47,041 nucleotides of DNA. Source: a virus. A program made the translations under genes and the position numbers. The stretch covers positions 1-47,041 of IMG/VR virus record IMGVR_UViG_3300031552_000009; one strand, 5' to 3'. The number at the start of each line of letters is the position of its first letter. Position 1 is the stretch's first letter. Below are positions 7,699 to 32,563 of this stretch, piece by piece. Below the pieces are notes generated by a model. It did no database searches. It was given only the letters and a program-made list of their open reading frames with translations, and was not told the origin of the DNA.

Positions 7699-8697
7699 AT
7701 GGCAGTATCGTACGTACACCAGCAGTTCAGCATGTTCGAGCGCCTGCGCGGTTCCGATCCGAGCGGCAAGAAGATGCTCCCGATTGTGGAGGCGATCAAC
7801 CAGAACATTGACGACTTTCTCAAGGACATGTACTCGGTCCAGGCGAACATGGGTTTGTGGAACCGCACCCGGGTCCGCAACAGCATCCCGACACCCAGCT
7901 TCGGCCAGTTCTATCGTGGGACAAGCAAGAACAGCACCACGACCCGTTTTATCCCGGAACATGTGTGCGAGATCACCGACCGCAGCGAGGTCGATTGCCG
8001 CGAGCTGGATACCATCCAGAACGGCAAAGAGGAGCGCACCAACATCGTCAAGGCGTTCCTACAGGGCATGGGCCAGAAGATTGTCGATCTCAGTATCAAC
8101 GGCGGCGAGGACGCCACGACCGGCCAGCACGTCAAGGGCCTCCTGGAGCGCCTCAACAGCTTGCAGGTTGCCAGCGCCGACCGCAAGAACGTCATCACGG
8201 CGGGCGGGTCAAGCAACCTGACGGCGATCCTCCTGGTGGAGTGGGGTCCGCAAGCCTATTTCTGTATCTACCCACCGGGCTACGTCAAGAATGCCACCTA
8301 CGGCGTCACGTATCGCAACGAGAAGCGCGAAAAGGTCTATGATGACGACGACAAGCCGTACTACGCCTATGTCGACACCTTCAGCGCCTGGCTCGGCAAC
8401 TGCTGTGCGGACGAACTGAAGATCGCCGCCGTCGTCAACGTCGATTCGACCGCCACATTCAACGAGGACCTCATCATCAAGCTCCTCAACCGCTGCAAGT
8501 TCCGGCGGGGGGTCACGCGCATCTACTGCAACGAGATCATTCGGGGGCAGATCGAGATTCGCGGCAAGGACAAGGCGAACATCCTGTGGGGTACGAACGA
8601 GCTGTTCGGACGCGAGGTCACGACGTTGAGCGGCGGAGCGATCCTCCGCACGGTGGACTCCGAAATCCTCGGCAACGATCTGACCGCCGTGACCTGA
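7699..8697 (+). CDS. major capsid protein (GP7-like, HK97 fold expected)
   Basis: 332 residues. Forms the capsid shell. The N-terminal part has the layout of the GP7-type major capsid family: KKMLPIVEAINQNIDDFL, then MGLWNRTRVRNSIPTPSF, then EHVCEITDRSEVD. Later segments include GWYG-type region equivalents (YPPGYVKNATYGVTYRNE) and CNEIIRGQIEIRGKD. The gene follows the scaffold candidate and has its own strong ribosome site (GAGGTG, five bases before the ATG), in keeping with high expression. The family call is by recalled pattern. Confidence 0.8.
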   Translation: MAVSYVHQQFSMFERLRGSDPSGKKMLPIVEAINQNIDDFLKDMYSVQANMGLWNRTRVRNSIPTPSFGQFYRGTSKNSTTTRFIPEHVCEITDRSEVDCRELDTIQNGKEERTNIVKAFLQGMGQKIVDLSINGGEDATTGQHVKGLLERLNSLQVASADRKNVITAGGSSNLTAILLVEWGPQAYFCIYPPGYVKNATYGVTYRNEKREKVYDDDDKPYYAYVDTFSAWLGNCCADELKIAAVVNVDSTATFNEDLIIKLLNRCKFRRGVTRIYCNEIIRGQIEIRGKDKANILWGTNELFGREVTTLSGGAILRTVDSEILGNDLTAVT

Positions 8698-8765: not shown

Positions 8766-9209
8766 ATGAACGACCGATTCGCAACATTCTGTGCCGACAA
8801 GAGCATCCTTTCGGGGGTGACGCCGTGCTACGCGCTCGGCAGCGGCAATGAGTTTGATTTGGAGACCTACGCGGCCGCCGACATGCAGGTCACGGGGTGG
8901 CTCAACGTGCGCTTCAGCGAAGACGCCGCGCCCACGGGCGGGACGGAAGGACTGGACATCGCGCTGCACGTGGACGACGACGCCGGCATGGCGTCCGCCA
9001 GCGTGTTGCAAACCATGCACCTCAAAGCGGCCGAGGTCGCCGCCGGCAAGTGCTACTCGATGGGCGTCGCCGTTCAGAGGAACGAAAAGCTCATGGACGT
9101 GTATATCGCGGCCACGAGCACCGAGTTTGGCGGGGTGCTGAACGTGACCATCACGCTAGACGCCTTTCCCCTGCTGAACGAGGTGCATCAGTCCAACCTG
9201 ACCATGTGA
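8766..9209 (+). CDS. capsid decoration-like protein (Bbp16-like?)
   Basis: 147 residues starting MNDRFATFCADKSILSGVTP. Mostly beta strand with Thr/Ala/Asp, including GLDIALHVDDDAGMASASVL and a C-terminal VTITLDAFPLLNE. The position directly after the major capsid gene and the layout resemble Bbp16-type virion proteins, which decorate or cement the shell. The family link is tentative. AAGGAG lies about nine bases before the ATG. Confidence 0.6.
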   Translation: MNDRFATFCADKSILSGVTPCYALGSGNEFDLETYAAADMQVTGWLNVRFSEDAAPTGGTEGLDIALHVDDDAGMASASVLQTMHLKAAEVAAGKCYSMGVAVQRNEKLMDVYIAATSTEFGGVLNVTITLDAFPLLNEVHQSNLTM

Positions 9210-9301: not shown

Positions 9302-10213
9302 ATGAAACGATGGATTCCTGTAGCGCTCCTGCTGGCCTTGCTCTGCGCGGTCGCGTGGGGTGCGTTCACCAAGTCCGTCACGTCCATAGACTGGCGCTCG
9401 ATTCGCCTGCTCGAAGACGGCGGCGAACTCGATACCTGGATGACGGAGGCCGAGGGCAAGATCAATGCGGCCTCGGGGACGTGGAGCGGTGGGGCCGTCG
9501 CCGCCGACGCCAACCTGGCGGACGGCGTGGTCATCTACACCGCTCCGGAAGTGGCTGATGCCAACAATGCCATCCAGGGCTACGACGTAGATGGGACGGC
9601 GAACGTCGATATTCTGCGGTGGCAGAATGGCAATACGGTCAGTGCCGTGCTCGGCGCCGCGACCGTTCAATTCTCGCTGGCTTCGACCGGACTGGACATC
9701 TCGACGGCGGGCGCGATTTCCAACGCCACCACGGTCCAGGGCACGGGCAACGCCACGATGGCCGGCTACACGTTCAGCACTACGGGGACCTCGGAATATG
9801 TCTCCGTCGTGGACATCAACGACGCGGAACTCGTCGCGCTGCGCGCCACGCCGATGGAGTTGGTCGCTACGCCTGGAGCCGGGGCCTACATCGAAGTCGT
9901 CAGTTGCCAACTCATCTTCGACTACGGCAGCGGCACGGCCTACGCCGAGAGCGCCGATAACCTAATTCTGGGCTACGACGACGGCACGACGCAGATCGGC
10001 AACACGCTCGAAATGACCGGGTTCATCGACCAGGTAAACGACATGGTCCTGTGGTGGGTCAATTCGGCCACAGCGCACAATCCGTCGCTGCTCGTCAACA
10101 AGAACATCGCGATCAAGAACTCCGGCGACGGAGAGATTGTCACCGGGGACGCCAGCGACGGGGCGCTGCGCGTCATTACCACGTACCGCGTCCATACGAG
10201 CCTCAGCCTCTAA
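9302..10213 (+). CDS. signal-peptide-bearing virion-type beta protein
   Basis: 303 residues. The N-terminus is a textbook Sec signal: MKRWIPVALLLALLCAVAWG, probable cleavage after AWG. The mature part is Thr/Ala/Asp/Gly-rich beta structure. Its C-terminal half (ELVALRATPMELVATPGAGA, then DYGSG and EMTGFIDQ) follows a pattern seen in phage head and tail accessory proteins. It sits between the decoration protein and the radical SAM cassette. Virion proteins normally lack export signals, so this is odd; the same applies to four other late genes here. It may be an exported adhesin or a virion part added outside the inner membrane (inference). Confidence 0.7.
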   Translation: MKRWIPVALLLALLCAVAWGAFTKSVTSIDWRSIRLLEDGGELDTWMTEAEGKINAASGTWSGGAVAADANLADGVVIYTAPEVADANNAIQGYDVDGTANVDILRWQNGNTVSAVLGAATVQFSLASTGLDISTAGAISNATTVQGTGNATMAGYTFSTTGTSEYVSVVDINDAELVALRATPMELVATPGAGAYIEVVSCQLIFDYGSGTAYAESADNLILGYDDGTTQIGNTLEMTGFIDQVNDMVLWWVNSATAHNPSLLVNKNIAIKNSGDGEIVTGDASDGALRVITTYRVHTSLSL

Positions 10214-10225
10214 GGGAGAGCGAAG

Positions 10226-10600
10226 ATGACGGTGAAACGCTCATTCAAACAGCTTAGCTGGGCGACGGGCGCCGGCCACGCCGCTCAAACCGATACCATC
10301 GGGGACATTACCGGCAAGCTCCTGCGCGCCAACGTCACTATCTCCGAGGTGACGGGCAACCCCACGAGCGATGTCACTCTGGTCGACGCGCGCGGGGCGA
10401 CTCTGGCCACGTTTAGCACCCTCGCGGATGGTACGGCCCACGTCTTGCTGGCCGAGAGTCATAAGGCCACGCAGGATGCCGATTTCAACCCCATCCCGTG
10501 CGTGGCCGAGACGCTCACGCTGAGTGTCGATCCCAGCGCCGACGCCGGCGGCACGGGCCAAACCTTGACCGTGGACGTGGACCTCTATCTCGAACAATAG
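10226..10600 (+). CDS. small beta-rich structural protein
   Basis: 124 residues starting MTVKRSFKQLSWATGAGHAA. The pattern DTIGDITGKLLRANVTI, then SDVTLVDARGATL, then a final DVDLYLEQ is a compact beta sandwich type found among head-completion or tail proteins of many phages. Exact role unknown. GGGAG lies eight bases before the ATG. Confidence 0.6.
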   Translation: MTVKRSFKQLSWATGAGHAAQTDTIGDITGKLLRANVTISEVTGNPTSDVTLVDARGATLATFSTLADGTAHVLLAESHKATQDADFNPIPCVAETLTLSVDPSADAGGTGQTLTVDVDLYLEQ

Positions 10601-10618: not shown

Positions 10619-10810
10619 ATGAACATGTTTTGGCTCTATACTCTGACTGCCGTGGCCCTGCCGGCGCTCGGCACGTTGCTGTGGGCGTCTCGCTGCATCC
10701 GCCGACCGGAGAGCCGCTGGGGCTATGCCGGTTTCCTGATTGGCGCGTACTGGCTGGGATGGTTCCTGCACTTCATGCTGTGGACGCAAACGTGGCACGT
10801 AGGGAGGTAG
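10619..10810 (+). CDS. small two-span membrane protein
   Basis: 63 residues. Two hydrophobic spans are visible: roughly residues 3-22 (FWLYTLTAVALPALGTLLWA) and 36-54 (YAGFLIGAYWLGWFLHFML), joined by a short basic turn (RCIRRPESRW). AAGGA lies ten bases upstream. It is the first of three small membrane proteins around the radical SAM gene at 11020. A holin is possible from size and topology, but the linkage to the radical SAM gene suggests a partner role. Neither is proven. Confidence 0.6.
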   Translation: MNMFWLYTLTAVALPALGTLLWASRCIRRPESRWGYAGFLIGAYWLGWFLHFMLWTQTWHVGR

Positions 10811-10812
10811 TC

Positions 10813-11004
10813 ATGCTGGGATTCTACTTTTGGGGTCTGCTTTTGATTATTGGCTTTTACTGGTTCGTCGCTTGGCTGGCCGGGACACATCCCTATCTGT
10901 ATCGCTGGTGGCGTAGATGCTGCCACTGGCTGGGCACAAACACCGCTTCGGACGAGGAATGCCATGAGCATCGCCTCAAAGATCATCATCATCTGTGGTT
11001 GTGA
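10813..11004 (+). CDS. small membrane protein with Cys/His-rich tail
   Basis: 63 residues. One span at the N-terminus (FYFWGLLLIIGFYWFVAWLAG), then a basic turn (YRWWRR) and a soluble tail with CC, EECHEH and DHHHLWL. The cluster of three-plus Cys and five-plus His in 27 residues looks metal-binding, or could be the modification target of the radical SAM enzyme encoded next (inference). GGGAGG lies five bases before the ATG and just after the previous stop. Confidence 0.6.
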   Translation: MLGFYFWGLLLIIGFYWFVAWLAGTHPYLYRWWRRCCHWLGTNTASDEECHEHRLKDHHHLWL

Positions 11005-11019
11005 AAGGACGAGAGTGTT

Positions 11020-11889
11020 ATGTACAACATCGGCCAAGGAATGATGTTTCTGGTGACGTTGCGCTGCAACCTCTCGTGCCCCCGGTGCTTCGTCCGCCAT
11101 CGTCCCCATACCGCCCGTCGCGAAGATATGACGTGGGAGCAGTTCACGCACACCGTAGATCGGTGCGCCGAACTGGGGCTGCACGTCAAATGGCTGCAAT
11201 TCTCCGGCGGCGAGGCGACCCTGTGGCCGCACCTGCGCGATGCCGTACGCTACGTAAAAGCCGCTGGTATTTGCGACCGCGTTCGTATCACCAGCAATGG
11301 TGTCGATCGTAACCTCAGCGACTACGGCGGAGCGGACCTGATCTCCATCAGTCATTACGGCGCCGTGAATCGGGCCGATATGGCGCGCTTGCGCCGGCAG
11401 GCCAAGACCAGCAAGCAACGGGTGGACATCGGCTACGTGGTACACCTGCCGTGGCCCTGGCCCGATCTCGATCAGATTCCTTTGGATGCGCGAATGCCGG
11501 CAGCGTGCAGTTGTGTTCTCTATGCGTTCATTCAGGACCAAGTCTATCCCTGCTCTTTCAGCGCCATCGTCAATCCCAACCATCATCACTGTCATGTAGA
11601 CGAGGACTTCCCCAAGCTGCTGGCGGCGCGCGACCCGCGTTCCCAGCCGCTCTGTGCCGGCTGTCTGAGCAACCGCAAGCTCCGTCATGCGTATGGAGAA
11701 AATCTCACCTTTGAGGCGGGCGTGTGGGACTCTCCGGTTAGCGTTCTGCACAGTTTCCACTACCGGGGCCGTCTGCTGCGCTATCTGCATCGCGCCTATC
11801 GCCGCTGGCGATCCGATCACTTGTGGCGATGTCGCCATGACGAACTTCATGCCGAGGAGGATGTCGCGATCAAGGAGTCCACGACATGA
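11020..11889 (+). CDS. radical SAM enzyme in virion gene cluster
   Basis: 289 residues. Radical SAM enzymes use a 4Fe-4S cluster to cleave S-adenosylmethionine and start radical reactions. The CxxxCxxC motif is at Cys 16, 20 and 23 (RCNLSCPRC) and the SAM-binding GGE at 63-65 (FSGGEATLW). A second cysteine group (Cys 163, 165, 178, 191, 212, 215) resembles a SPASM/twitch-type auxiliary cluster region, as in peptide-modifying members. The C-terminal 40 residues are Arg/Trp-rich (YRGRLLRYLHRAYRRW). ATG 11020. The stop overlaps the next membrane-protein start by four bases. The substrate is unknown; neighbouring small Cys/His peptides are candidates. Confidence 0.85.
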   Translation: MYNIGQGMMFLVTLRCNLSCPRCFVRHRPHTARREDMTWEQFTHTVDRCAELGLHVKWLQFSGGEATLWPHLRDAVRYVKAAGICDRVRITSNGVDRNLSDYGGADLISISHYGAVNRADMARLRRQAKTSKQRVDIGYVVHLPWPWPDLDQIPLDARMPAACSCVLYAFIQDQVYPCSFSAIVNPNHHHCHVDEDFPKLLAARDPRSQPLCAGCLSNRKLRHAYGENLTFEAGVWDSPVSVLHSFHYRGRLLRYLHRAYRRWRSDHLWRCRHDELHAEEDVAIKESTT

Positions 11890-12083
11890 AGTGCAAAGAT
11901 TGGCTGCTGCTGTTCGGGGGGATGCCGCTGGTGGGTGTGAGCTTGACTTGGGCCATCCTGACGTGGCCCCTGCGCGCCTGGCGTCGCCACCGCACCGTGT
12001 CACGGCGTGTCCGCGAAGCGCGTTACCAGATGTGGCTGTCCGAGATGGGCATGGACAGGAAGGCATCGTATTTGAGGCCCTGA
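11886..12083 (+). CDS. small membrane protein coupled to radical SAM gene
   Basis: 65 residues starting MKCKDWLLLFGGMPLVGVSL. One hydrophobic span (about residues 6-28) followed by a strongly basic cytoplasmic-type tail (RAWRRHRTVSRRVREARY). The start overlaps the radical SAM stop by four bases (ATGA). The stop shares one base with the start of the secreted beta-helix protein (TGATG). This tight coupling implies that the radical SAM enzyme, this protein and the beta-helix protein are made together. Confidence 0.6.
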   Translation: MKCKDWLLLFGGMPLVGVSLTWAILTWPLRAWRRHRTVSRRVREARYQMWLSEMGMDRKASYLRP

Positions 12084-13732
12084 TGCGACAGACTCTGCTT
12101 ATCCTGCTGATCTTCGCCGTGCTCGGCGGCTCCGCCTGCTCGGCCCAATGGCTCTTCATCAAGCGCACCGGGGTCTCCCCGCCGGAAGAGCCGAACGAAC
12201 CCAATGAACCGCCGGCGGAGGGCAGCTACTACATCGACCCGTTGAACGGCAGCGACGACGCCAACGGCTTGTCCGTCGCGACCGCCTGGAAGACGGTGCA
12301 GCACGCCGAACAGACGGCCGTCGCCGCCAACGTCTACCTGCTGGACGGTGACTACGAGGCCATCAACATCACGGCCCTGGGCACGCCGCGCAGCTCGTGG
12401 AGCGAGGCCGTCACGTTCCAGCCCTATCCCGGCGACGATCCGAACATCGAGCAGCTTTACATCACCGGGCAGGTCCATCGGTACATGACGTGGGACGGTC
12501 TCGACATCACGTACCCCAATCGCGGGACGGAGACCTGGACCAACGAAGGCTACGTCGTCTGGATTCAAGGCGGCCTATCCATCCGGATCAAGGACTCGGT
12601 CATTACCGGCGTCTTCAACGCCGATCCGAACGACGCCGAGCATCGCAATGCGGCCAAGTATGCGATCTCCAAAATCTTCTTTCTCTCCGAGCCGGACATC
12701 AGCCACGTCGGGGACATTCTCATCGACGGCTGCACCATCCAGAACGGCCGACAAGGTCTCTACTTCGCCACCGATCATCTCGTGGGCCAAGTGACCGTCC
12801 AGAACTCCATCATCCGGTATACGTCCAGCAGTCTGATCGTCATCGTCAACGGGGTCAGCGACTGCACCCCGCCGCAATGGCCGCGCCCCATCTTCCAGGA
12901 CAATCACCTCTACGGCCATTGGGAAGGGTTCGCGAACGATTTCTCCGAGTCCGCGCACGGCAGTGGATTCTATCTGAACTCGGATGGCATCATCATTCGC
13001 CGCAACGTCATCGAGAGCTACGGCACGACGGCGGCCCTGCGGACCTATCCGGTGGGCACGGTCTACTACAAGAACATGACGATTGAGAACAACCTCATCC
13101 TGCACCCGCTCAACATGGCGTTTCAGTTCTACCGTCTCGGCGGCGATTCGATCATCGCCAACAACACCGTCATCGGTGTCCACGACGCGGGGACCAACGG
13201 GTACTATTTCGGCAATAGCAGCTACAACCTGACGAACTCGGTGGAGAGCACGGACGGCGACGTGAGCAACTTGACGATCTGCAACAACCTGTTCCTGGCC
13301 TGTACGGAACAGAACATGCTGGTTGAGGGCGCGCACGAGGAAGGCAACATCTTCTGGTCGATCTACGACTCCGGCTCCGGGTTTATGACGCAGACCACCT
13401 TGACGGCGAACTTTCCCGGCAATCTCGTCTTGGCCGGGGCCGATGACGCCAACCTGCCCGACGTGACCGAAGATATGTTCGCCGGCGGGACATGGTACGA
13501 CAGCTACGCCTTCGCGCCCGCCGTGCAGACCGATCCAAAAACCTCGGTCGAAGACTACAAGTGGAGCGCCGGCGACGGCCACGCCGACCCGGCCCACGCC
13601 TTCGATCTCGTGACCGGAGCGCTGGCCGTGGACTACGGCACGGACGTAGACGTGGATACCGACTTCTGGGGCGACAATCGCGATGCCTCTCCGGACGCCG
13701 GATACGATGAGTACGTAGGAGAATCCCCATGA
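12083..13732 (+). CDS. secreted right-handed beta-helix protein (adhesin or tail spike type)
   Basis: 549 residues. Signal peptide MRQTLLILLIFAVLGGSACS with likely cleavage at CSA-Q, a PEEPNEPNEPP linker near residue 35, then YYIDPLNGSDDANGLSVATA, the usual opening of secreted parallel beta-helix proteins. Repeating coil motifs with Asn ladders follow (DGCTIQNGRQGLYFATD, IENNLILHP, IANNTVIG, ICNNLFLAC). The end (DTDFWGDNRDASPDAGYDEY) is the typical closing segment. Beta-helix folds occur in phage tail spikes and polysaccharide lyases; no catalytic residues could be assigned. GAGG lies five to six bases before the ATG. The export signal is unusual for a tail spike. Confidence 0.75.
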   Translation: MRQTLLILLIFAVLGGSACSAQWLFIKRTGVSPPEEPNEPNEPPAEGSYYIDPLNGSDDANGLSVATAWKTVQHAEQTAVAANVYLLDGDYEAINITALGTPRSSWSEAVTFQPYPGDDPNIEQLYITGQVHRYMTWDGLDITYPNRGTETWTNEGYVVWIQGGLSIRIKDSVITGVFNADPNDAEHRNAAKYAISKIFFLSEPDISHVGDILIDGCTIQNGRQGLYFATDHLVGQVTVQNSIIRYTSSSLIVIVNGVSDCTPPQWPRPIFQDNHLYGHWEGFANDFSESAHGSGFYLNSDGIIIRRNVIESYGTTAALRTYPVGTVYYKNMTIENNLILHPLNMAFQFYRLGGDSIIANNTVIGVHDAGTNGYYFGNSSYNLTNSVESTDGDVSNLTICNNLFLACTEQNMLVEGAHEEGNIFWSIYDSGSGFMTQTTLTANFPGNLVLAGADDANLPDVTEDMFAGGTWYDSYAFAPAVQTDPKTSVEDYKWSAGDGHADPAHAFDLVTGALAVDYGTDVDVDTDFWGDNRDASPDAGYDEYVGESP

Positions 13733-15945
13733 AACGAGTCCTCTTCTTGACTGTGCTCTGTATGACGACGACAGGCTATGCGGGTGCGATCTACGTGAAT
13801 GCGGCAGCCGCCGGTGGGGGCGACGGTTCCACCTGGGCGCAGGCGTGGAATACGGCAGAGTTTGCCGCCGACACGCCCGGCCCCAACGATGTCTACTACG
13901 TGAAAGCCGGCACGACCTACAGCTTCGAGGCTTCTCTGGCGTGGTCCGGGTCCAGCGGAGTCGGGACCGGACCGATCACGCTGATCGGCGTCAAGAGCGG
14001 AACGACGAACGAACCGCCCGTCACCAGCGATTACGCGACCGGTTCCGACCGGCCCCTGTTCGACTTCTATACCCTCGTCTCCGGCCGTCTGATCGTGGGT
14101 GACTACTGGTACGTCAAGAACATGCGGATCATCGGCAACGCCACGACGTCTTTCACGACGACCGAGAAGTGCGTGGTGGAGGGTTGCTACGTCTACAACA
14201 ACAGTGGCAGCGCCGACCGAACCGCCTTGGAACCGGACGCTTACAGCACGATCATCGAGTGCGAACTCATCAGCACCAACGGCGCGGCCCTGGCCCCGGC
14301 GGGCAACGCGGTCCGGGTCACGACCTGCTACATCCACGATAGCGCCACGGGTTACGCGATAGCCGGCTACGGCGCGCTTGTGGACAGCGTCGTCTGGGGC
14401 TGCACCACGGGTGTGACCTGCACGGGGATCGCGCCGCTCGTCTACGGCAACACCATCGGCGGTTGCACCAACAACGTCACCGGATCGGTAGACACCTACG
14501 CTCTCATCAACAACATCATCGTGGACGCCGACACCGCCGAAGTCGCCTGGACGGCCGACGCGACGGGACTTGCCTCGCACAACTGCTGGGGTGCTTCGCC
14601 CACCCTGACCAACTTCACGCTCGGGCTGGACGGCACGAACATTTCGACCGATCCGAACCTCACAGACCCCAACGGCGATGATTTCTCCATCGGGACCGAC
14701 AGCGTCGCCTTCGACGCCGGGGTCCAGGTCGATGCGACCGTGGGAGTTGCCAACACGAACTACGTGAACATCGGCGCCTACCAGACCGATGCCAACACCG
14801 TCGCCAGCGGCGCCACCGCCGAAGAGATCGCGGCGGCCGTGGTCAGCGCCCTGAACGCGACGACCATTCCCGTCAACGTCACCAAGTTCGAGGGCGCCGA
14901 CATCAGCGATACGCTGCTCGACCCCAACGGACTCGTCAAGACCGCCGTGCATGACGTGTCCTCGGCGGCGGGCGTTGCCACGCTGGCCGACTTCTTCGCC
15001 ACCGACACCGGCGATACCTACGCCGGCGCAGTCAGCGGCTCGGTCGTCAAGGAGATCGCCGACAATGCCGGGGGCGGCGGGGGCTTCGATCCCAATACGA
15101 CCCCGGTGCAGGTGAGCACGACCGGCGTCGCCGCCATTCAGTCTGGGTTATCGACCTTCGACCCGAATAGCACACCCGTGACCACCAATAGCACCAGTAT
15201 TGCGGCCATCGCGGCGGCCGTACCATCCAGCAGCTTTGACCCGAATACCACGCCGGTCCAACTCAGTTCGGCGGCCCTTAGCGCCGTCGCCGCCGGGCTG
15301 CATGATTTCGATCCCAATACCACCCCTATCCAGGTATCGAGCACCGGCGTCGCCGCACTGGCCGCGGCGCTGCACGATTTCGATCCCAATAGTCTGCCCG
15401 TGCAAATCTCTTCGACGGCCCTCGCCGCCATCGCGGCGCTGCTGCCCGAGAACTTCGATACCGTCACCGTCGCCGACGCTAAGATTGCGGCCGATGCTTC
15501 GGTGTCCCTGACCGAAGAAGATGTCAACGATATCGCCGACGGCGTCCTAACCGCCCTGGGCGAAGGGATTGCCGTCAACGAGTTCACCGAATCCGCGCTG
15601 GCCGCCATCAACGCTCAAGTCGATACGGCGCTCGAGGATTACAACAGCCCGACGAAGTCCGAACTCGACGCCGGTTTCGCCGCCTTGAATGACCCCAATG
15701 AAGCGGCCATTGCCGCCGAGGTCGTGACAGAGCTGCTGGCCGAGACCTTCGATGGGACGATCAAGGTCGGAGACCTATACGACGGGCTTCTGGCCTTCCT
15801 GACGGGCAAATGCGTCATCGTGGACAATGGGGCCACGAGTACCTACACATTCTACAAAAACGACGGTACGACGATCTCCTATAGCTTGACCAGTGCCGAC
15901 GACGACGGCGCGCGGGCCGTGGGAGCCATCATCAACGAAGAATAG
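13729..15945 (+). CDS. secreted beta-helix/fibre protein with FDPN repeats
   Basis: 738 residues. Signal peptide MKRVLFLTVLCMTTTGYA (cleavage after GYA). It begins AIYVNAAAAGGGDGSTWAQA, as in secreted beta-helix proteins, with coil motifs up to about residue 340. A linker is followed by five tandem repeats of about 24 residues starting FDPN-x-TPVQ at residues 453, 477, 503, 527 and 551, plus a degenerate sixth at 576. The C-terminal domain (GKCVIVDNGATSTYTFYKND) resembles short domains ending phage tail proteins. It starts inside the previous stop (ATGA). Probably a receptor-binding or glycan-binding fibre; export again unusual. Confidence 0.7.
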   Translation: MKRVLFLTVLCMTTTGYAGAIYVNAAAAGGGDGSTWAQAWNTAEFAADTPGPNDVYYVKAGTTYSFEASLAWSGSSGVGTGPITLIGVKSGTTNEPPVTSDYATGSDRPLFDFYTLVSGRLIVGDYWYVKNMRIIGNATTSFTTTEKCVVEGCYVYNNSGSADRTALEPDAYSTIIECELISTNGAALAPAGNAVRVTTCYIHDSATGYAIAGYGALVDSVVWGCTTGVTCTGIAPLVYGNTIGGCTNNVTGSVDTYALINNIIVDADTAEVAWTADATGLASHNCWGASPTLTNFTLGLDGTNISTDPNLTDPNGDDFSIGTDSVAFDAGVQVDATVGVANTNYVNIGAYQTDANTVASGATAEEIAAAVVSALNATTIPVNVTKFEGADISDTLLDPNGLVKTAVHDVSSAAGVATLADFFATDTGDTYAGAVSGSVVKEIADNAGGGGGFDPNTTPVQVSTTGVAAIQSGLSTFDPNSTPVTTNSTSIAAIAAAVPSSSFDPNTTPVQLSSAALSAVAAGLHDFDPNTTPIQVSSTGVAALAAALHDFDPNSLPVQISSTALAAIAALLPENFDTVTVADAKIAADASVSLTEEDVNDIADGVLTALGEGIAVNEFTESALAAINAQVDTALEDYNSPTKSELDAGFAALNDPNEAAIAAEVVTELLAETFDGTIKVGDLYDGLLAFLTGKCVIVDNGATSTYTFYKNDGTTISYSLTSADDDGARAVGAIINEE
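15085..15460 (+). repeat. tandem FDPN repeats within fibre gene
   Basis: Five in-frame repeats of 72 or 78 bases, starting at 15085, 15157, 15235, 15307 and 15379, with a decayed sixth near 15454. Each encodes FDPN-x-TPVQ-hydrophobic-SS followed by a short Ala-rich helix (AALAAALH). They probably form an elongated stalk or trimerising rod. Confidence 0.7.
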
Positions 15946-15954
15946 GAGGCCGTC

Positions 15955-16683
15955 ATGCCGGGAGTGATACCGGTACAATCTATACCCTTGGGAGCGCTGG
16001 CCGCGACCGCCGGCGGCGAGGACTCCGGGACCGGGACGCAGACCATCGAGGTCTATCTGGCCGTCGGCCCGCCCAACGCCACCGACCTGTGCAACGGCGC
16101 GATCGACTTGGTCGGCGCCGGCGTGGAGGCGTACGATCAAATCCTGGATTTCGTGACGGATACGAGCCGCCTGGCGGACCATTGCCGGCGGCGCTTCCAT
16201 CGCGCCCGGCGCCGCGCCTTGCTGAAATGGCCCTGGCCGGAAGCGGGGGCCTACCTGCCTGGCACGGCCGGGGACACCGACTTCATCCATCCGACCTACG
16301 ATTTCACTTACAGTTACCAGATTCCCGTCGGCGCGGGCCTGCTGGCCTTGCGCCGCATCGTGAACGCCAGCGCCCGGCCGCTCCTGTATGACCGGCACGG
16401 CGACCATATATTGACCAACTATCTGCCCAGCGAATTCTGGTGGCACTTCACGCTCGATCTGGCCGGCCCCTTCTCGGAAGGATTGGGCCGCTGCATCGAA
16501 TACGAATTGGCCATTGACCTGTGTGGGCCGTTGCTGCGCGGCGAGGCCGCCTCCAAGCGGCGCGTCGAGCTGCATCAGGAGTACCGCGAGATCGGACTGC
16601 CCGACGCAGCCCGGCAGGCCCAGGACGAGCAGTACGACCAGACCAACGCAGCCGCGCCGATACCCTGGATCGAAATCACGTAG
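15955..16683 (+). CDS. tail adaptor protein (tail tubular protein A-like)
   Basis: 242 residues. In short-tailed phages the adaptor ring sits under the portal and holds the nozzle and fibres. After a variable N-terminus come RLADHCRRRFHRARRRALLK (the usual long basic helix), WPWPEAG, YSYQIPVGAGLLALRRIV and LYDRHGDHILTNY. These match the helix, WNF-type, Y-x-Y-x-L-P and L-L-T-N landmarks of tubular A proteins. The final helix (EYELAIDLCGPLLRGEAASK) also fits. The N-terminal 30 residues are Gly/Thr-rich. GGAGG lies about six bases before the ATG. Confidence 0.75.
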   Translation: MPGVIPVQSIPLGALAATAGGEDSGTGTQTIEVYLAVGPPNATDLCNGAIDLVGAGVEAYDQILDFVTDTSRLADHCRRRFHRARRRALLKWPWPEAGAYLPGTAGDTDFIHPTYDFTYSYQIPVGAGLLALRRIVNASARPLLYDRHGDHILTNYLPSEFWWHFTLDLAGPFSEGLGRCIEYELAIDLCGPLLRGEAASKRRVELHQEYREIGLPDAARQAQDEQYDQTNAAAPIPWIEIT

Positions 16684-16916: not shown

Positions 16917-19568
16917 GTGCCTCTGCACAGCATTCAAATGAGCTACGCCGGCGGCGAACTGTCGCCGTTGATCTCCCACCGGTTCGATTTGGAGCCCTAC
17001 GCCCTCGGGGCGCGCACCCTGGAGAATATCATCGTCACGGAGACCGGCGCCCTGACGCGCCGACCCGGCACGTATCATGCCGACGACGCCACCACCAAAG
17101 GCAATGCCCCGGCTTACTTGCTGGCGTGGGTCTACAACCATGAGGATAGCTACGTACTCGAATTTACGCCCCTGAAAATCCGCGTCTATCGCGATCACGG
17201 CTTGGTGGAATCGGCGCCCGGCGTCCCGTTGGAGATCGACACCCCCTTCACAGCGACCGAGTTGCCGTACTTGCAGGTATGGCAGTCAGGGGACGTGCTC
17301 TGGATTCGTTCGCAAAGCCGCTGGAACTATAAGCTGACGCGCACCAGTCACACCGTCTGGACCCTGGCGGACAGCTATCCCGACGATGGACCGTGGCGGC
17401 AGACGAACGTCGCCGCTACGACGATCTATCCCAGCAACGTCGGCAAGCCGGGCACGTACACGGTCCTCCATGCCAGCGCCGACGTGTTTGAACCGGAGCA
17501 CGTCGATTCGGCGTGGCGGCTCGACCATATCCTGCCCGAGCGCGCGCAAGAAAAGACCTTCACCGCCGAGGCCGAGGACACGAACAGCCTGCTCGTGGCC
17601 AAGGGCGGCGAATGGGAGTTCAGCGTCCAGGTTGCCGGCGGCGCTGCCGCCGAAGCGACGATCGAGCTGCAATACTCGCTGGACGGCGCGACGTTCAGCA
17701 CCTATCGCAGTGTCTCCGTCCTGCGCGCTGCGAACGATACCAGTCTGCTCGAAATCATCAAGGACAGGTTTCTGGGTCGCGACGAACGGATCGAGCCGAC
17801 GCCGATGCACACCGGCGAGAATGCCGAGGACCGGGCCATCTACTTGCGCGCCGCCTGCACCAGCCACGCGAGCGGGATGATCAAGACAACCATCAAGGCC
17901 AAGCCCTATACGCACAGCGGTATCATCTGGCTGACCTTCTATACGTCCGCCCGGCAGATGGGCGGAGAGATCGTCGTGTCGCCGGCCAGTACGGACCCGA
18001 CCGCGGATTGGGCCGAGGGCGCGGTCAACGGCGTGCGCGGCTACTGGCGGGCGCTGGGTTTCAATGCCGAGCGCCTCGTCCTGGCGGGCACGGAGGACGA
18101 ACCCCTGCGCATCGACGCGGGCGTGGCCGGTGATTACGACCGCTTCGATCCCGGCTTTGCCGACGACACCGACGCCTTCAATATCACCTTGAGCCAGTCC
18201 CGGCAGAACCGCATCCAGTGGATCAACGGCGAATGGACCAGCTCCATGCTGGTCGGCACCGAAGGCGGCATTGTGGAGCTGCGACCGCTGAGCGGCGCGG
18301 GCGGCTTCACCCCGACGAACTGGCCGGCCATCTACCGCACCCTGCGCCGGCGCATGACGCGCATTCCGCCGGCGATGGTCGATGACGTGCTGATCGCTCC
18401 GGGGGGCGTGGGCGCCCAGCGCTGCTACCAAATCTATCACTCGACCGAGCGCGGCGGCCTGGTGGCAGACGATTTGACCCGCTATGCGCGGCACATCGGG
18501 CGCACCGGTTTCGTGGGCCTGGCCGTGCAAGAGGACCCGGATCAAATCCTCTGGCTGCCGCGCGCCGACGGCGTCATGGCGGCCTGTTCCTTCGCGTACG
18601 GGGCGACCGCTTGGCATCGGCACCAATTCGGGCAGGGCGTGATAAGTCACTGCACGGTCCCGACCCCTACGGGCGATGAACTCTGGCTCTGCGTCGAGCG
18701 CTTGGTCGGAGCGGAAACGCGCTACTTCATCGAGTATATGGGCCTGGTCGATCTCGAAGCCGAGATCGAGGACGGACACTATCTGGATTGCGCGGAGGTC
18801 TGGGACGGGGGCGATCCCGCCGTGGTCTATGCCGTGACACGCACGGACCCGGCCGTCGTGCATTTGGTCACGTGGCCCACCGACAGCAACGGCGACGCCC
18901 TGGCGGACGGCGATACCGTGCGGTTTATCGGCCACACCGACCTGCAACGTCAAATCTTCCAGGTCTACGGGGCCGACGCCGAGGCCCACACCCTGCAACT
19001 GAAAGATGTCACGGGCGCCGTCGTCATCAACGGCGAACTGTTCACGGATGAGAGTACCGACGTTACGCTCGAATGGGTGCGCGCCGGACTGAGCGGGCTG
19101 GCGCATCTGGCGAACCAGACGGAACTGGCGCTGGTCGATGGGCAGGAGCGCCCCATCACCATCGACGCCGTCGGCGCGTTTACGCTCGGCGACACCGTCG
19201 AATACGACTCCTACGCGCGCACCGTCCGGGCCGGCATTTCCTACACAAGTCTCTTCGTCTCCCTGCCGTTGGAATTCTACCTGCGCTCGGGAACCACGGT
19301 GGGCATGCGCAAACAACTGAGTCAGTTGACGTTGAGTCTCTACCGCAGCTACGGGGGTGAGTACGGGGTTTCGACCGAGCAGTATCAGGCGCTGGAGTAC
19401 CGGCGCTCCGCCGCGCAGACGGGGGCGGGACCATTCCTCTGTACCGAGGACAAGAACCTGCCACCCATCGGCGGGATGTTCAGCGGTGAATTGAACGTTA
19501 CAGTGCGTTGCACGGGGGCCTACCCGTTCACCATTCGCGGCATGGCCCCGGTTGTGGAGGTTCATTGA
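16917..19568 (+). CDS. tail nozzle protein (tail tubular protein B-like)
   Basis: 883 residues with a GTG start directly after the previous TAA. GGGAGGG ends about ten bases before it. The opening (QMSYAGGELSPLISHRFDLE, then LENIIVTETGALTRRPGTY) is the hallmark of the large nozzle/tubular B family, which forms the distal tail tube. The middle has the expected beta-rich blocks (ERLVLAGTEDEPLRID, GGIVELRPLSGAGGFTP). The C-terminal region ends with KNLPPIGGMFSGELNVTVR. Length is normal for the family. Confidence 0.8.
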   Translation: MPLHSIQMSYAGGELSPLISHRFDLEPYALGARTLENIIVTETGALTRRPGTYHADDATTKGNAPAYLLAWVYNHEDSYVLEFTPLKIRVYRDHGLVESAPGVPLEIDTPFTATELPYLQVWQSGDVLWIRSQSRWNYKLTRTSHTVWTLADSYPDDGPWRQTNVAATTIYPSNVGKPGTYTVLHASADVFEPEHVDSAWRLDHILPERAQEKTFTAEAEDTNSLLVAKGGEWEFSVQVAGGAAAEATIELQYSLDGATFSTYRSVSVLRAANDTSLLEIIKDRFLGRDERIEPTPMHTGENAEDRAIYLRAACTSHASGMIKTTIKAKPYTHSGIIWLTFYTSARQMGGEIVVSPASTDPTADWAEGAVNGVRGYWRALGFNAERLVLAGTEDEPLRIDAGVAGDYDRFDPGFADDTDAFNITLSQSRQNRIQWINGEWTSSMLVGTEGGIVELRPLSGAGGFTPTNWPAIYRTLRRRMTRIPPAMVDDVLIAPGGVGAQRCYQIYHSTERGGLVADDLTRYARHIGRTGFVGLAVQEDPDQILWLPRADGVMAACSFAYGATAWHRHQFGQGVISHCTVPTPTGDELWLCVERLVGAETRYFIEYMGLVDLEAEIEDGHYLDCAEVWDGGDPAVVYAVTRTDPAVVHLVTWPTDSNGDALADGDTVRFIGHTDLQRQIFQVYGADAEAHTLQLKDVTGAVVINGELFTDESTDVTLEWVRAGLSGLAHLANQTELALVDGQERPITIDAVGAFTLGDTVEYDSYARTVRAGISYTSLFVSLPLEFYLRSGTTVGMRKQLSQLTLSLYRSYGGEYGVSTEQYQALEYRRSAAQTGAGPFLCTEDKNLPPIGGMFSGELNVTVRCTGAYPFTIRGMAPVVEVH

Positions 19569-27039: not shown

Positions 27040-30000
27040 ATGATCCGGATACGTTGGTTCTTCATCACCCTGATCCTCCTGGCGGCGTCCTGCGCCAGCG
27101 CCCAAGTGACCGAAGGCTACATGTGGGAGCAAAAGACCTGCGATGGTTCGGTCAAGAGTTTCACGTTCAGCTTCAAAATCCGGGCCGCGACGGAGGTCGT
27201 CGTGTACGCCATGGACACGACGACGACACCTTACACCAGCGCGACGCTCACGAGCGGCACGGACTATACGCTCAGCGTCTACAACGGCCGGTATCCCGCG
27301 ACCGGCGGCACGATCACGACGACCCTCGCTTATCCGAGCACGACCTACCTCATTATCACCACGGATATCGCCTTGACGCAGTCCGGACAACTGGCCACGG
27401 GCGCCTGGGATCCGCTGACGGTCCAATATATGATCGACAAGAGTCGCGCCATCGACAATGAGCAAGACCGGCGCTTGGCCCAGACGCTGCACAATCCGTC
27501 GACCATCAATCCGAATGTCACCACGGAACTGCCCGGCCTCGGCAGCGCCGGTTATGTCTACCGCGCTGCCAACGGCGTGCCGTCCCTTAAAAGCGGCCTC
27601 ACTCCGGACGCCAACCTCGAAAGACTCGCCACGAACGAGAACATCCAGGACTTCGCCGACTTCGAGCCGAACGATGCCGGCGCTTCCTACCCGGACTATC
27701 CGGCAGTGGCGTGGCTTTGGTTCGACTATACGAAATCGTGGGGCAAGAAGCTCATCAGCGATCTCGGCAGCACCTTGCTGGGCGTGCCCACCGTCCTGGA
27801 CGGACAGCGGGCCCTCGATCTCGAACCCGGCGTGGACGTGCAAGCCTACGACCCGAACCTACAGGCCATCGCGGCGCTGAATACGACCGCGCACGGCCGG
27901 GGCCTGCTCGATGACGCCAACGCGGCCGAATCCCGCGCTTCAATCGACGCCCAGCGCAAGCTCGTCTTCGACGTGAACGAGTACGGGGCGGAAGGGGATG
28001 GCGTCACGGGCGACAGTGCGGCGATCAACGCTGCCTTGGCGGCTGGATCTGGCGCAACGGTTGTTTTTGCGGCGGGCACCTACCTGCTGGACTCCGCGAT
28101 CTCCGTCCCCGACGACGTGACTGTGGAATTCCTGCCGGGGGCGATGATCGACTTGGATGACTACAACTTCGACGCGGACAATGTGATCGCAGGTCGTTAT
28201 CAGATATTCGACTACACGGGTACGGGAGTGGCTCGACTGGGGACGGGATCGGATTATGATTTCAATTTCCATTACCCTGATCCGGCTTACCCACAATGGT
28301 GGGGGGCATTTGGTGATGACGACGTAGATGACGCGGACGCCATCCAAAACTGCCTCAACTCTCTCGGCCTTAGTCTGGCAGCCGGGAATACGATGAGCGG
28401 GCGGGTGGACTTCGGTCCGGGCCGGTTTCTCATTGACCATACCATTCGCATCAACTGGTTCACCACGGACGGCACGGCCGGAGATGATTTCAGTTTGGGC
28501 GGCTTGGACAATCTCTCTTTTGGCGGTTCACCGGCCCGTTGGGGGGCCGTGAATCTGGTGATTCAGGGCAGCGGGGCACGCTATGTCGCGGGCTATGGCG
28601 AGGACGCCGCCGGGGGCACGGAGTTTGAGTGGAATACGACCGACGAAGGGCCGGTCTTCTGGGTAGTCAATGGCCGCGGTGTGCAGTTCCGCGATCTGGC
28701 GATCAACGGTGACAGCCTCACGGCCGATACGGGAATCTGGCTGACGGGCACCACTAGCGGAACGCGGCTCGACAATCTGCAAATCGCAGAGTGCAAAATC
28801 GGTGTGCGGCAGGGCTGTAATGTCCATTGGTCTTTCGATCCGGTGACATTCAGCAATTACGAGACGGCCGGCGTCCAAGCTCAGGGGGGCATGAGCGTGG
28901 ATATGACCTACGGCACGATGGTAATGATGTACAATTGCACCGCCGGTTGGTCCAACGAGTCGAATCAGAGTATACATACAGTGCTGCAACTGTTGGCCGT
29001 GAACGGACCCGACACCGACGACAGTTATGGTATCTATCTGGCCAATGGCAAAATGGACGTGGGGGAACTCTACGTTTCCGAGGTGGAGTACGGATTACGC
29101 GCTCTCGGCGGGTCGTTTACTTTGTCGGGACGCGGTCATTGTGAGGATTTTGCCCCGACGGCCGACGACGCCCATACGATCAAAGCCAACGGCGTAGGCG
29201 TGTTGATCGTCAACGGTCTCGACTGTCCCAATGACGTGACGATCACGGACAGCGGCGGCTACAATTGCTATGCCTATCTCAACGGGCTGGGGATTGCGGG
29301 CGATCTGACTATTGGAGGAGCGGGGTCGGGCAGCTATCGCCATTCCGTCTCCGTTGATAACTGCAAAGTCACCGGTACGCTCGATCTGTCTACCAATTCT
29401 GCCCGACTGGACTACAGTCAGAGGACATGCAATTTCACGGGAGAGTTGGCCTCACCCGTGACGGGGTGGGCCTCGTGCGATAGTTTCAGTCAGGTCGGCT
29501 GCCAGTATTCCAGCAGCTTGACTGACACGGCCCTCGCTTCCGATGTGCACGCGGGCAAGTCGTTATATGCGGCGGCGGGACTGACCGTGGCCAACGGTCC
29601 CACCTCCGCCGGCTATGTGGACTTCTACGACAACGGCAACAACTACATGCGGCAGCAGGCAGCGGCCAGCATAGGGTCTAACTTTACCGTGACCTGGCCC
29701 GACGCCGTTCCCGGCTCTACGAGCTATCTGCAAATGAGCACGGCGGGAGTGCTTGACTACAACACGCCTTCCGGCGCAGGCGATATGGAGAAAGCCACCT
29801 ATGACACCGATGCCAGCGGTTACGCGGACGGCAATGACGCCGTGCCCTATGGCGCAGGATGGGCTGACTCGAACGATGCAGCACCGATGGCCGCCGTCTA
29901 CGCGGCGATCCTTGCAGCCGGGGGGCATGACGCCGTGACGATCTCTGAGGAACTGAACTTTCTCCTGCTGCTGACCGGGCAGGCATTGGATTTCAACGAT

Positions 30001-31185
30001 GTCGCTGCCAACTACGTTCTGGCCGGTCCCACGACAGGAGCGGCAGCAAAGCCAACTCTGCGCGCACTTGTGGCAGGGGATATCCCAGACATCTCAGGAA
30101 CATACCAAACAGTCCTGACCAACTCGGCGGGACTCGCGGGAGCCCTCTCGGATGAAACCGGGTCCGGGGCGGCAGTCTTCGCAGACACCCCCACACTGGT
30201 AACGCCCATCCTCGGAACGCCAACATCCGGTACGCTGACGAACTGCGACGGTACAGCAGCCAGCTTGACGGCAGGTACAGCAACCGTTGCCACGACAGTC
30301 ACCATCACCGACAATGAAGACACGGCAGAAAACAACCCTCTCGTATTTGTCGCCGGGGGGGATTTGGACGGCGGAGATTTGGGTCTTGAATCGGATGGCA
30401 CTACCTACTACACCCCGTCCACCGGTGTTATCACGGCCACGGGGTTCGCCGGGGCTTTGACGGGCAACGTGACCGGGGATGTCTCGGGTTCGTCGGGTTC
30501 CTGCACGGGCAATGCGGCCACGGCCACGACCGCCAGCAACCTGGCCGAAGACGGCGTCGATGCCATCACTGAAATTGCCGCCGCCCTCAAAAGCGGCTCC
30601 GACACGACGCTGGTCACGGGTACGGCAGGCTCAACCGGCAACCTCGCGGAATGGGACGGTAACGGAGACGCTGTCGATTCCTCCCTTGCCACGGCGGACG
30701 TGGTTACAGGGGCCAGCAGCGACACCTTCACCAACAAGACCCTCGACGCCGACGGCTCCGGCAACAGCCTCACCAACATTGACGAGGACAACTGCAAGGA
30801 CGGCTCCGACCTCGTCACTATAGGTGTAGGAGTCGTCATCGACGGAGGTGGAGAAGCCATCAGTACGGGTCTGTATTGCTGGATACAATTCCCCTATAAC
30901 TGCACGATCAAAAGCGTTACCCTTTTGGGAGACCAAGCCGGAGCCATCGTAGTAGACATCTGGAAGTGCTCCTACGCTGACTTCGATCAGTCCACCCACC
31001 CGGTAGATGGTGATTCGATCACGTCCGCTTCGCCGCCCACCATCTCGGCATCCGGGGTCAAAGCGGAGGATTCGACGCTCACCAGTTGGACCACGGCAAT
31101 TACGGCCGGAGACATCTTGGCTTTCAATGTGGATTCCTGTACAACTATCGAACGATGCACACTGACGATTGTGGTGGAGAAGTGA
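27040..31185 (+). CDS. signal-peptide-bearing tail fibre/spike with pectate-lyase-type helix
   Basis: 1,381 residues. The N-terminal signal MIRIRWFFITLILLAASCAS has likely cleavage at ASA-Q. It is followed by a domain laid out like the T7 tail-fibre attachment domain (KSFTFSFKIRAATEVVVYAM, LTSGTDYTLSVYNG, GGTITTTLAYPST, then YMIDKSRAIDNEQDRRLAQ). At about 308-370 comes the pectate-lyase-3 opening (VNEYGAEGDGVTGDSAAINA) and a long beta-helix. From about 900 on there are fibre-type repeats (PTLVTPILGTPTSGTLTN, DTFTNKTLDADGSGNSLTN). GGAG lies about eight bases before the ATG. It is probably the main receptor-binding or glycan-degrading fibre; an attachment domain behind an export signal is odd. 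Confidence 0.75.
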   Translation: MIRIRWFFITLILLAASCASAQVTEGYMWEQKTCDGSVKSFTFSFKIRAATEVVVYAMDTTTTPYTSATLTSGTDYTLSVYNGRYPATGGTITTTLAYPSTTYLIITTDIALTQSGQLATGAWDPLTVQYMIDKSRAIDNEQDRRLAQTLHNPSTINPNVTTELPGLGSAGYVYRAANGVPSLKSGLTPDANLERLATNENIQDFADFEPNDAGASYPDYPAVAWLWFDYTKSWGKKLISDLGSTLLGVPTVLDGQRALDLEPGVDVQAYDPNLQAIAALNTTAHGRGLLDDANAAESRASIDAQRKLVFDVNEYGAEGDGVTGDSAAINAALAAGSGATVVFAAGTYLLDSAISVPDDVTVEFLPGAMIDLDDYNFDADNVIAGRYQIFDYTGTGVARLGTGSDYDFNFHYPDPAYPQWWGAFGDDDVDDADAIQNCLNSLGLSLAAGNTMSGRVDFGPGRFLIDHTIRINWFTTDGTAGDDFSLGGLDNLSFGGSPARWGAVNLVIQGSGARYVAGYGEDAAGGTEFEWNTTDEGPVFWVVNGRGVQFRDLAINGDSLTADTGIWLTGTTSGTRLDNLQIAECKIGVRQGCNVHWSFDPVTFSNYETAGVQAQGGMSVDMTYGTMVMMYNCTAGWSNESNQSIHTVLQLLAVNGPDTDDSYGIYLANGKMDVGELYVSEVEYGLRALGGSFTLSGRGHCEDFAPTADDAHTIKANGVGVLIVNGLDCPNDVTITDSGGYNCYAYLNGLGIAGDLTIGGAGSGSYRHSVSVDNCKVTGTLDLSTNSARLDYSQRTCNFTGELASPVTGWASCDSFSQVGCQYSSSLTDTALASDVHAGKSLYAAAGLTVANGPTSAGYVDFYDNGNNYMRQQAAASIGSNFTVTWPDAVPGSTSYLQMSTAGVLDYNTPSGAGDMEKATYDTDASGYADGNDAVPYGAGWADSNDAAPMAAVYAAILAAGGHDAVTISEELNFLLLLTGQALDFNDVAANYVLAGPTTGAAAKPTLRALVAGDIPDISGTYQTVLTNSAGLAGALSDETGSGAAVFADTPTLVTPILGTPTSGTLTNCDGTAASLTAGTATVATTVTITDNEDTAENNPLVFVAGGDLDGGDLGLESDGTTYYTPSTGVITATGFAGALTGNVTGDVSGSSGSCTGNAATATTASNLAEDGVDAITEIAAALKSGSDTTLVTGTAGSTGNLAEWDGNGDAVDSSLATADVVTGASSDTFTNKTLDADGSGNSLTNIDEDNCKDGSDLVTIGVGVVIDGGGEAISTGLYCWIQFPYNCTIKSVTLLGDQAGAIVVDIWKCSYADFDQSTHPVDGDSITSASPPTISASGVKAEDSTLTSWTTAITAGDILAFNVDSCTTIERCTLTIVVEK

Positions 31186-31186
31186 T

Positions 31187-32563
31187 ATGAAAAACAGAAC
31201 CATGCTTGTATTGCTCTTCTCAGCAATCTTCTGTGCACCGGTGTTGGGTCAGCTTTCCGATACGACCGAGCCCGCGTACTACAAGATCATCACCGCAGCG
31301 GACGCGGACATTCCCGGCAACATCGCCCACGCATTGATTTACGTGCCGTTCGACGATGCGGATTTTCACACCCTTTCAGCGCGAGAGGCGTCTCTGCACG
31401 TCACCGTGGACGGAGAAACGACGGTGCTGCCACGCTATATCAACGCGTGGACGGACGATGGCGATTCGGTGGTAGGCGGTCTCTACTTCACTTCGCCGTT
31501 GACGGATGGGCAAGATAACAAGTTTCGCATCTGGTACGATGCAAACGCCGACAACGACGGCAGCCAGGATGGAGCGGGCATCTGTTCAGCCATCGGGGCA
31601 GAGGTTTTCATTCCGTGCAACGAAGGGACCGGAGGGACAGTGGCCGATATCAGCGGTAACGGTCACAACGGCACACTGGAGGGAGACGCCACATGGAATG
31701 CATCCGGCAAATTGGGACCATGCCTGCAACTCGACGGGACCGATGATTACGTGGATTGCGGGTCTTTTGATTCTCATAGTTGGTCTGCGTACACCTTATG
31801 GTCCTGGGTGAATTACGATTCGTCCGGAACAGACGAGCACAGCGTCATCAGTAATTTCGATAATAGCAATACCCACGGCAGTTTTATCATGCGACTGGAA
31901 CCTTCGAATGATACGATAGAGTCGTATGCGATCATCGTATCCGATACGCAGGTAGGGGCGCAGTTCGCGACAGCGATCACGGCGAATCAATGGCAATCTG
32001 TCGGGGTCACATTCGATTCTTCCCTGGGGATGCACGCGTATCCAGACGGAACGAAAAGCGCCACGTCCGTATCTATCGGGGCCGCTCTGGATGCCGATTA
32101 TTCCAGCAGCGACAACCATCTCTTGCTGGGAAGCTCACCACACGCCGTCACGGATGATCTGACCGGTTATCTGGGTTGCTCCATAGTCTTTACGCGATGT
32201 CTCGATGACATCGAAATGCTGTGGCTGGCCAACAATCAAGATTCGGCTACGGGCCTGTTCTCGTGGGGCAGCGAAACAGCAGCGGATTGGGGTGCGGGAC
32301 CGGCGACACCCGCCCTGCCGCCACCGATCATCTGGTTCAGTGAGACTCTACAGGACTACAACGATCTGAGTGCGTGGTACGATGGCGAGTTGGCCCCGCG
32401 CGTGCATGCGCAGATTCAAGCCGAGAACCGGCAGATGATCGACAGCTTTCTCTCGGCACTGCAACTGTCGCTCTGCCGGAACGAGATCAACATGAGCGTG
32501 ACCGACAGGCAATGGGCCTGGATGCGGGCAAACAAACTCAAGAACCACGGATTATCGGATTAG
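31187..32563 (+). CDS. secreted DUF2341/LamG-type receptor-binding protein
   Basis: 458 residues. Signal peptide MKNRTMLVLLFSAIFCAPVL (cleavage near VLG-Q). The first domain (HALIYVPFDDADFHTLSARE, then DNKFRIWYDAN) resembles DUF2341. A LamG/concanavalin-like sandwich follows (VADISGNGHNGTLEGDATW, CLQLDGTDDYVDCGSF), a fold that binds sugars. The C-terminal 100 residues are helical (HAQIQAENRQMIDSFLSAL). Start 31187 has GGAG about eight bases upstream and follows the fibre stop directly. Likely an accessory fibre or exported glycan-binding protein. Confidence 0.7.
   Translation: MKNRTMLVLLFSAIFCAPVLGQLSDTTEPAYYKIITAADADIPGNIAHALIYVPFDDADFHTLSAREASLHVTVDGETTVLPRYINAWTDDGDSVVGGLYFTSPLTDGQDNKFRIWYDANADNDGSQDGAGICSAIGAEVFIPCNEGTGGTVADISGNGHNGTLEGDATWNASGKLGPCLQLDGTDDYVDCGSFDSHSWSAYTLWSWVNYDSSGTDEHSVISNFDNSNTHGSFIMRLEPSNDTIESYAIIVSDTQVGAQFATAITANQWQSVGVTFDSSLGMHAYPDGTKSATSVSIGAALDADYSSSDNHLLLGSSPHAVTDDLTGYLGCSIVFTRCLDDIEMLWLANNQDSATGLFSWGSETAADWGAGPATPALPPPIIWFSETLQDYNDLSAWYDGELAPRVHAQIQAENRQMIDSFLSALQLSLCRNEINMSVTDRQWAWMRANKLKNHGLSD

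Follow-up and report, generated by a model that had tools for sequence, protein, structure and literature searches.

The virus record IMGVR_UViG_3300031552_000009 of IMG/VR comes from an uncultivated virus known only from metagenomes, and its 47,041 bases (the window, analysed at full length) carry, at 11020..11889 on the plus strand, a gene for a radical S-adenosylmethionine (SAM) enzyme of 289 amino acids that is packed among genes for small membrane proteins and an exported beta-helix protein. The enzyme possesses a radical SAM core followed by a conserved set of auxiliary cysteines, its gene lies in a slot between the head-decoration and tail tubular genes, and it is coupled to the genes downstream. 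We tentatively regard it as a compact Twitch-type enzyme, carried as cargo of a variable slot for appendage genes, and we lean, with similar caution, toward a role in modifying a sugar or glycan for the virion appendage or the host surface. If the sugar reading is true, it would add radical chemistry to the means by which phages change the glycans of virions or host surfaces, and would offer a small testable radical SAM enzyme with a defined genomic slot.

The radical SAM enzyme and its relatives

The enzyme matches the radical SAM family PF04055 with 32.1 bits against a Pfam cut-off of 29.5, and carries the CxxxCxxC motif at C16/C20/C23 and a GGE motif at G63-G64-E65. Its other cysteines stand at positions 49, 85, 163, 165, 178, 191, 212, 215 and 271, and in the C-terminal half they form a CxC-x12-C...CxxC arrangement, as expected for a Twitch domain with one cluster. 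Five of them (C163, C165, C178, C212 and C215) make up a one-auxiliary-cluster set past the core, and all five are kept in the only full-length homologue found. The original prediction, made from the sequence alone, of a genuine radical SAM enzyme with these two motifs and auxiliary-type cysteines is therefore borne out. An AlphaFold2 (AF2) model, built with 62 remote relatives, is mostly confident over residues 7-141, where alternating strands and helices form the partial TIM-barrel (beta/alpha) core; beyond about residue 150 it cannot be relied on, with confidence values mostly under 50 once residue 157 is reached, and this region may have been harmed by the misplacement of the auxiliary cysteines in the first multiple alignment. 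The core matches radical SAM structures in Foldseek with probability 1.00.

The nearest solved structure is the Twitch radical SAM dehydrogenase SpeY (PDB 7WZV/7WZX/7X0B), both by sequence (E 3e-5, 25% identity) and by Foldseek core fold (E 3e-9); BlsE, viperin, SkfB and BtrN come next, and all these matches rest on the core. SpeY shares with the phage enzyme the CxxxCxxC core, the GGE motif, a length of about 300 residues and, by its cysteines, the one-auxiliary-cluster architecture; the match is confined to about residues 7-141, however, and no antibiotic pathway genes were recognised in the window. The C-terminal half alone gave no meaningful match in the PDB (best E 0.86, an unrelated protein) and nothing in NCBIfam. 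Homology to the sugar dehydrogenases SpeY and BtrN was not found to extend through this half, and we treat the enzyme as working like them without filing it as one of them. For the whole protein, no NCBIfam family reached its cut-off, the best matches being at most 37 bits and limited to the core; no housekeeping radical SAM family was matched, and a match of that kind is what had been named in advance as counting against the original prediction. A scan of genome contigs returned core-only matches among the matches listed, by which cellular homologues are not excluded. A second radical SAM-like gene (41091-41861), of a different type, lies in the half of the genome that does not contain the first; it scores 24.7 bits against PF04055, which is below cut-off, and matches phrog_13321 with E 8e-16.

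The full-length homologue came from a scan whose query alignment had been tuned to this radical SAM core, and belongs to a 50-kb uncultivated phage contig (IMGVR_UViG_3300036979_000962, here L275). It has 227 amino acids and aligns to residues 8-221 with 25% identity (E 4e-13), so that homology runs through the auxiliary region, where CxC-x12-C and PxCxxCLxN are shared, including the CLxN that follows the auxiliary cysteines; the 65-residue C-terminal extension of the window enzyme is absent from it. The L275 gene is lined up with genes for an MptE-like protein (below cut-off), a cupin, a GT2 glycosyltransferase (E 2.5e-17) and a methyltransferase, a company that the window enzyme does not keep, and this cassette is placed behind a capsid-like gene and ahead of exported and appendage-like genes, a position that resembles that of the window enzyme. 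No membrane genes of 63-65 codons were seen beside it. In record L009 the order is MptE-like, methyltransferase, radical SAM, GT2 and sulfotransferase genes and then tail genes; the compact radical SAM gene of L004 neighbours a weak GT2 match and a methyltransferase, and that of L006 has a GT2 gene within 4 kb. Among the other radical SAM-bearing virus records 4 of 17 held a GT2 gene over cut-off, against 1 of 18 podovirus-type comparison records, in a small and non-random sample. In a phylogenetic tree the enzymes of L275, L008, L005 (the same enzyme as L004), L006 and L009 grouped together, with 85 in the Shimodaira-Hasegawa-like approximate likelihood ratio test (SH-aLRT), and the window enzyme fell near this group with weak support (84) and long branches.

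The L275 (4770-9169) and L009 (498-8175) regions, in which MptE-like, glycosyltransferase, methyltransferase, cupin or sulfotransferase and radical SAM genes adjoin virion genes, are candidate virion or surface glycan cassettes in their own right.

A coupled gene block in a variable slot

The enzyme gene belongs to a run of five tightly packed, genuine genes at 10619-13732, all on the plus strand. These are sm1 (10619..10810), encoding 63 amino acids with two predicted hydrophobic segments in a holin-like outline; sm2 (10813..11004), also of 63 amino acids, with one N-terminal membrane segment and a Cys/His-rich tail; the radical SAM gene; sm3 (11886..12083), of 65 amino acids, with one membrane segment and a strongly basic tail; and the gene for an exported right-handed beta-helix protein of 549 amino acids (12083..13732). 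Two bases separate sm1 from sm2 and 15 bases separate sm2 from the radical SAM gene, which overlaps sm3 by 4 bases (ATGA), while sm3 in turn overlaps the beta-helix gene by 1 base (TGATG). A purine-rich, Shine-Dalgarno-like stretch precedes each of the five genes. With codon statistics derived from the genes of this phage, all five scored positive and the overlapping alternative frames negative, and thus the small open reading frames (ORFs) are not a product of chance.

The topology of the small proteins was derived from hydropathy and the positive-inside rule. Both sm2 and sm3 have one N-terminal segment and a basic C-terminal tail, which by this rule is probably cytoplasmic, and the tail of sm2 contains C36, C37 and C50 together with seven histidines. 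The enzyme has a basic tail as well, and homology between it and the tails of sm2 and sm3 was considered and rejected, as the alignment was no better than shuffles. The beta-helix protein matches PF13229 with 26.5 bits against a cut-off of 25.9 and begins with a signal peptide MRQTLLILLIFAVLGGSACSAQ; its AF2 model, made without relatives, had a mean confidence (pLDDT) of 32 and was not used. The original prediction thus holds for its three membrane proteins of 63-65 residues around the enzyme, and likewise for the Cys/His-rich tail of the second, the two overlaps and the exported beta-helix protein.

Judged from its genes, the genome is that of a podovirus-type phage with a PF12236 portal. The portal gene is clear (Pfam, E 3e-55), the terminase is backed by tblastn, and the portal, major capsid protein and tail tubular genes are all of the type seen in PF12236-portal podoviruses and in matching order (PF12236; phrog_212, phrog_394, phrog_376), although even the relatives with the most similar portal and tail tubular B reach only 24-31% identity. 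These genes surround the locus, as expected for the virion gene cluster that had been proposed. The landmarks on the plus strand are the major capsid protein (7699..8697, phrog_212, E 8e-20) and a head decoration-type protein (8766..9209) upstream, the latter recognised by a weak Bbp16 match (PF21190, E 1.8e-4, below cut-off) and by a position as in relatives, and downstream the tail tubular A-type protein (15955..16683, phrog_394, E 2.8e-8) and the tail tubular B-type protein (16917..19568, phrog_376, E 4.7e-115).

The five-gene block sits in the interval from the head-decoration gene to tail tubular A, where the named relatives have one or two small genes. By inspection those small genes encode no membrane segments, and we rejected the idea that small membrane genes are a standard feature of the slot. 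From the major capsid gene to tail tubular B, most relatives span 1.4-2.2 kb, whereas L012 has 2.7 kb, L249 6.9 kb and the window 8.2 kb. The slot of L199 is likewise enlarged, with LamG and beta-repeat genes at the same place. Since the slot is enlarged in the window, L199 and L249, the locus is a variable slot that accepts appendage-like genes. Three further slot genes, also on the plus strand, accompany the block. The protein at 9302..10213 has a Sec-type signal peptide MKRWIPVALLLALLCAVAWGA, and its N-terminal region aligns with its counterpart in the same slot of L249 (4252-6789), which has a signal peptide too; the protein at 10226..10600 has a tblastn homologue in the L199 slot (E 5e-7) and, by inspection, a similar protein in L249 (7913-8290). 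Neither L199 nor L249 has a radical SAM gene in spite of these shared neighbours, which makes the enzyme cargo of this particular phage and no constant component of the slot. The third gene (13729..15945) encodes a second exported repeat protein, with signal peptide MKRVLFLTVLCMTTTGYAGA, for which no family was found in Pfam or PHROG; its repeated DPN(T/S)(T/L)P-type motifs seem to resemble those of exported Planctomycetota proteins. The idea, taken from these DPN-rich proteins, that the enzyme came from Planctomycetota was rejected, as about 390 genomes gave core-level matches only (single sequence; two-row profile).

Single-protein scans of IMG/VR with the radical SAM, portal or major capsid protein yielded no close relatives, nor did a tblastn search of 50,697 phage records with the enzyme and the beta-helix protein. 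The four-gene order that the original prediction proposed to look for in related phages was found in no other phage.

Sugar, peptide or host metabolism

A sugar or glycan substrate appears likelier to us than a peptide because the sole full-length relative found stands among sugar-attaching genes of another virus. The same reading is supported by SpeY, BlsE and BtrN, which are near by sequence or fold and act on sugars or aminocyclitols, and by the radical SAM genes of L275, L009, L004 and L006 with their glycosyltransferase or methyltransferase neighbours, while the link to appendages is supported by the virion position and the expanded slot. Under such a scenario SAM would be cleaved at the C16/C20/C23 cluster and hydrogen abstracted from a sugar-type substrate, which may lead to oxidation, epimerisation or deoxygenation, and one extra Fe-S cluster would be bound by cysteines among C163/C165/C178/C212/C215. 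The product could then enter a glycan on the neighbouring exported appendage proteins or on the surface of the infected cell, and sm2 and sm3, with their tails toward the cytoplasm, might act as anchors or partners that retain the enzyme, or what it makes, at the inner membrane, the exit site of exported proteins. Several points weigh against this scenario. No GT2 glycosyltransferase (PF00535) was found in the window, whereas one is present in the L275, L009 and L006 records, and no other sugar genes were recognised near the enzyme, so that its product would depend on host enzymes. L275 is a distant relative, the tree has weak support and long branches, and the gene context of a family need not carry over at 25% identity. 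As the AF2 model is unreliable past about residue 150, it does not show the Twitch fold, and SkfB illustrates that Twitch-type enzymes can modify peptides too.

The original prediction had proposed peptide modification. Spelled out, this would mean that the enzyme acts on the beta-helix protein before export, or on one of the cytoplasmic tails (sm2 or sm3), to form a thioether, an epimer or another crosslink. The tight coupling, with its 15-base gap and two overlaps, would suit it, as would the three cysteines and the His-rich tail of sm2 predicted on the cytoplasmic side, and SkfB (6EFN), a Twitch maturase of ribosomally synthesised and post-translationally modified peptides (RiPPs), is among both the sequence and the Foldseek matches, sharing a radical SAM core and, putatively, a Twitch-type domain. 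SkfB has a defined precursor peptide; the window, in contrast, has neither a recognised precursor nor a RiPP recognition element (RRE), since the PqqD domain PF05402 is absent from the 47-kb record at E <= 1 and the enzyme begins directly with its core, although some RiPP maturases have no recognisable RRE. No curated RiPP-maturase model of NCBIfam reached its cut-off, and the L275 homologue lies in its GT2, methyltransferase, cupin and MptE-like cassette without such small proteins. That a relative occurs without the small membrane genes had been named as a ground for abandoning the prediction; L275 goes some way toward this, but at only 25% identity. The three small ORFs beside the enzyme are the adjacent precursor candidates, yet no homologue was found for any of them, and so no conserved core or substrate residues can be recognised. 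With no RRE, no maturase family, no relatives of the small proteins found and the full-length homologue in the company of sugar genes, peptide modification is doubtful and not the reading we favour, and its fuller form, in which a phage Twitch enzyme decorates exported appendages before they cross the membrane by modifying the virion-associated beta-helix protein or a membrane peptide, either sm3 or the Cys/His tail of sm2, is a shade less probable. If the enzyme does modify a peptide, we know of no earlier radical peptide maturase linked to a phage virion. No report of a virion-linked phage radical SAM enzyme with small membrane proteins was found in the literature searched, in which subscription journals were mostly not covered.

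It is also rather unlikely, to much the same degree as that fuller form, that the enzyme is metabolic cargo unrelated to the virion, which alters host metabolism next to small membrane proteins that serve lysis or superinfection exclusion and are neighbours by chance. Phages do carry radical SAM genes in exchangeable modules considered metabolic, with eleven in the Campylobacter phage CP220 (PMC2853527), and the radical SAM enzymes of CP220 and CP21 are structural neighbours of the window enzyme in BFVD. CP220 and CPt10 share with the window small radical SAM enzymes in exchangeable modules (PMC2853527), but they are large T4-related phages with 11-12 copies, in modules with a putative glycine amidinotransferase, where the window has a slot with membrane and beta-helix genes. 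In the Thermus phages Cumys and phiMa a radical SAM/DUF483 module is conserved and DNA modification has been proposed (PMC11437467); there too a phage radical SAM gene forms a module with partner genes, though one of the partners is a DUF483 protein. The holin-like outline of sm1 would fit a lysis role, but a membrane protein with a coiled-coil outline at 32576-32890 may mean that sm1-sm3 are not needed as holins, and the translational coupling of the enzyme to sm3 and the beta-helix gene speaks against chance neighbourhood. Codon adaptation of the sm1-sm3 block is somewhat lower than in its flanks and within the range of other phage genes; a foreign origin of the block on this basis was rejected, as 18% of stretches of equal length from other genes score just as low. 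Very improbable is counter-defence by viperin-like chemistry, with the enzyme making a modified nucleotide during infection. Viperin structures are among the Foldseek matches and the core partially matches prokaryotic viperin models (NF038283, 34.1 bits; PADLOC pVip, 34.4 bits), but the curated NF038283 cut-off is 180, the match stops at residue 95, and the C-terminal half carries auxiliary cysteines that viperins do not have.

Exported proteins of the tail region

Five virion-region proteins of the window, starting at 9302, 12083, 13729, 27040 and 31187, begin with Sec-type signal peptides, while a simple heuristic, which is not SignalP, was positive for 8 of 615 long ORFs in relatives, six of the eight being one lysozyme-like family. 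The protein at 27040-31185 is a tail spike or fibre with a pectate-lyase-like domain (PF12708), a match to tail spike family phrog_2234, a fibre-like N-terminal domain and signal peptide MIRIRWFFITLILLAASCASAQ, and its C-terminal part matches phrog_35197 and the virion structural family phrog_10330. Its neighbour at 31187-32563 carries a LamG domain (PF13385) and begins with signal peptide MKNRTMLVLLFSAIFCAPVLGQ. Tailed-phage fibres normally stay in the cytoplasm until assembly, and no report of Sec signal peptides on tail proteins of tailed phages was found in the same literature, subscription journals again mostly not covered. These exported neighbours pose a testable question, namely why tail-region proteins of several tailed phages carry Sec signal peptides. 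Further signal-peptide genes occur in the slot or tail regions of L229, L249 and L275, and even tail tubular B, a core virion protein, has a signal-peptide-like N-terminus in 3 of the 86 uncultivated relatives tested (L196 4942-7629, L249 9917-13549 and L252 4135-7935).

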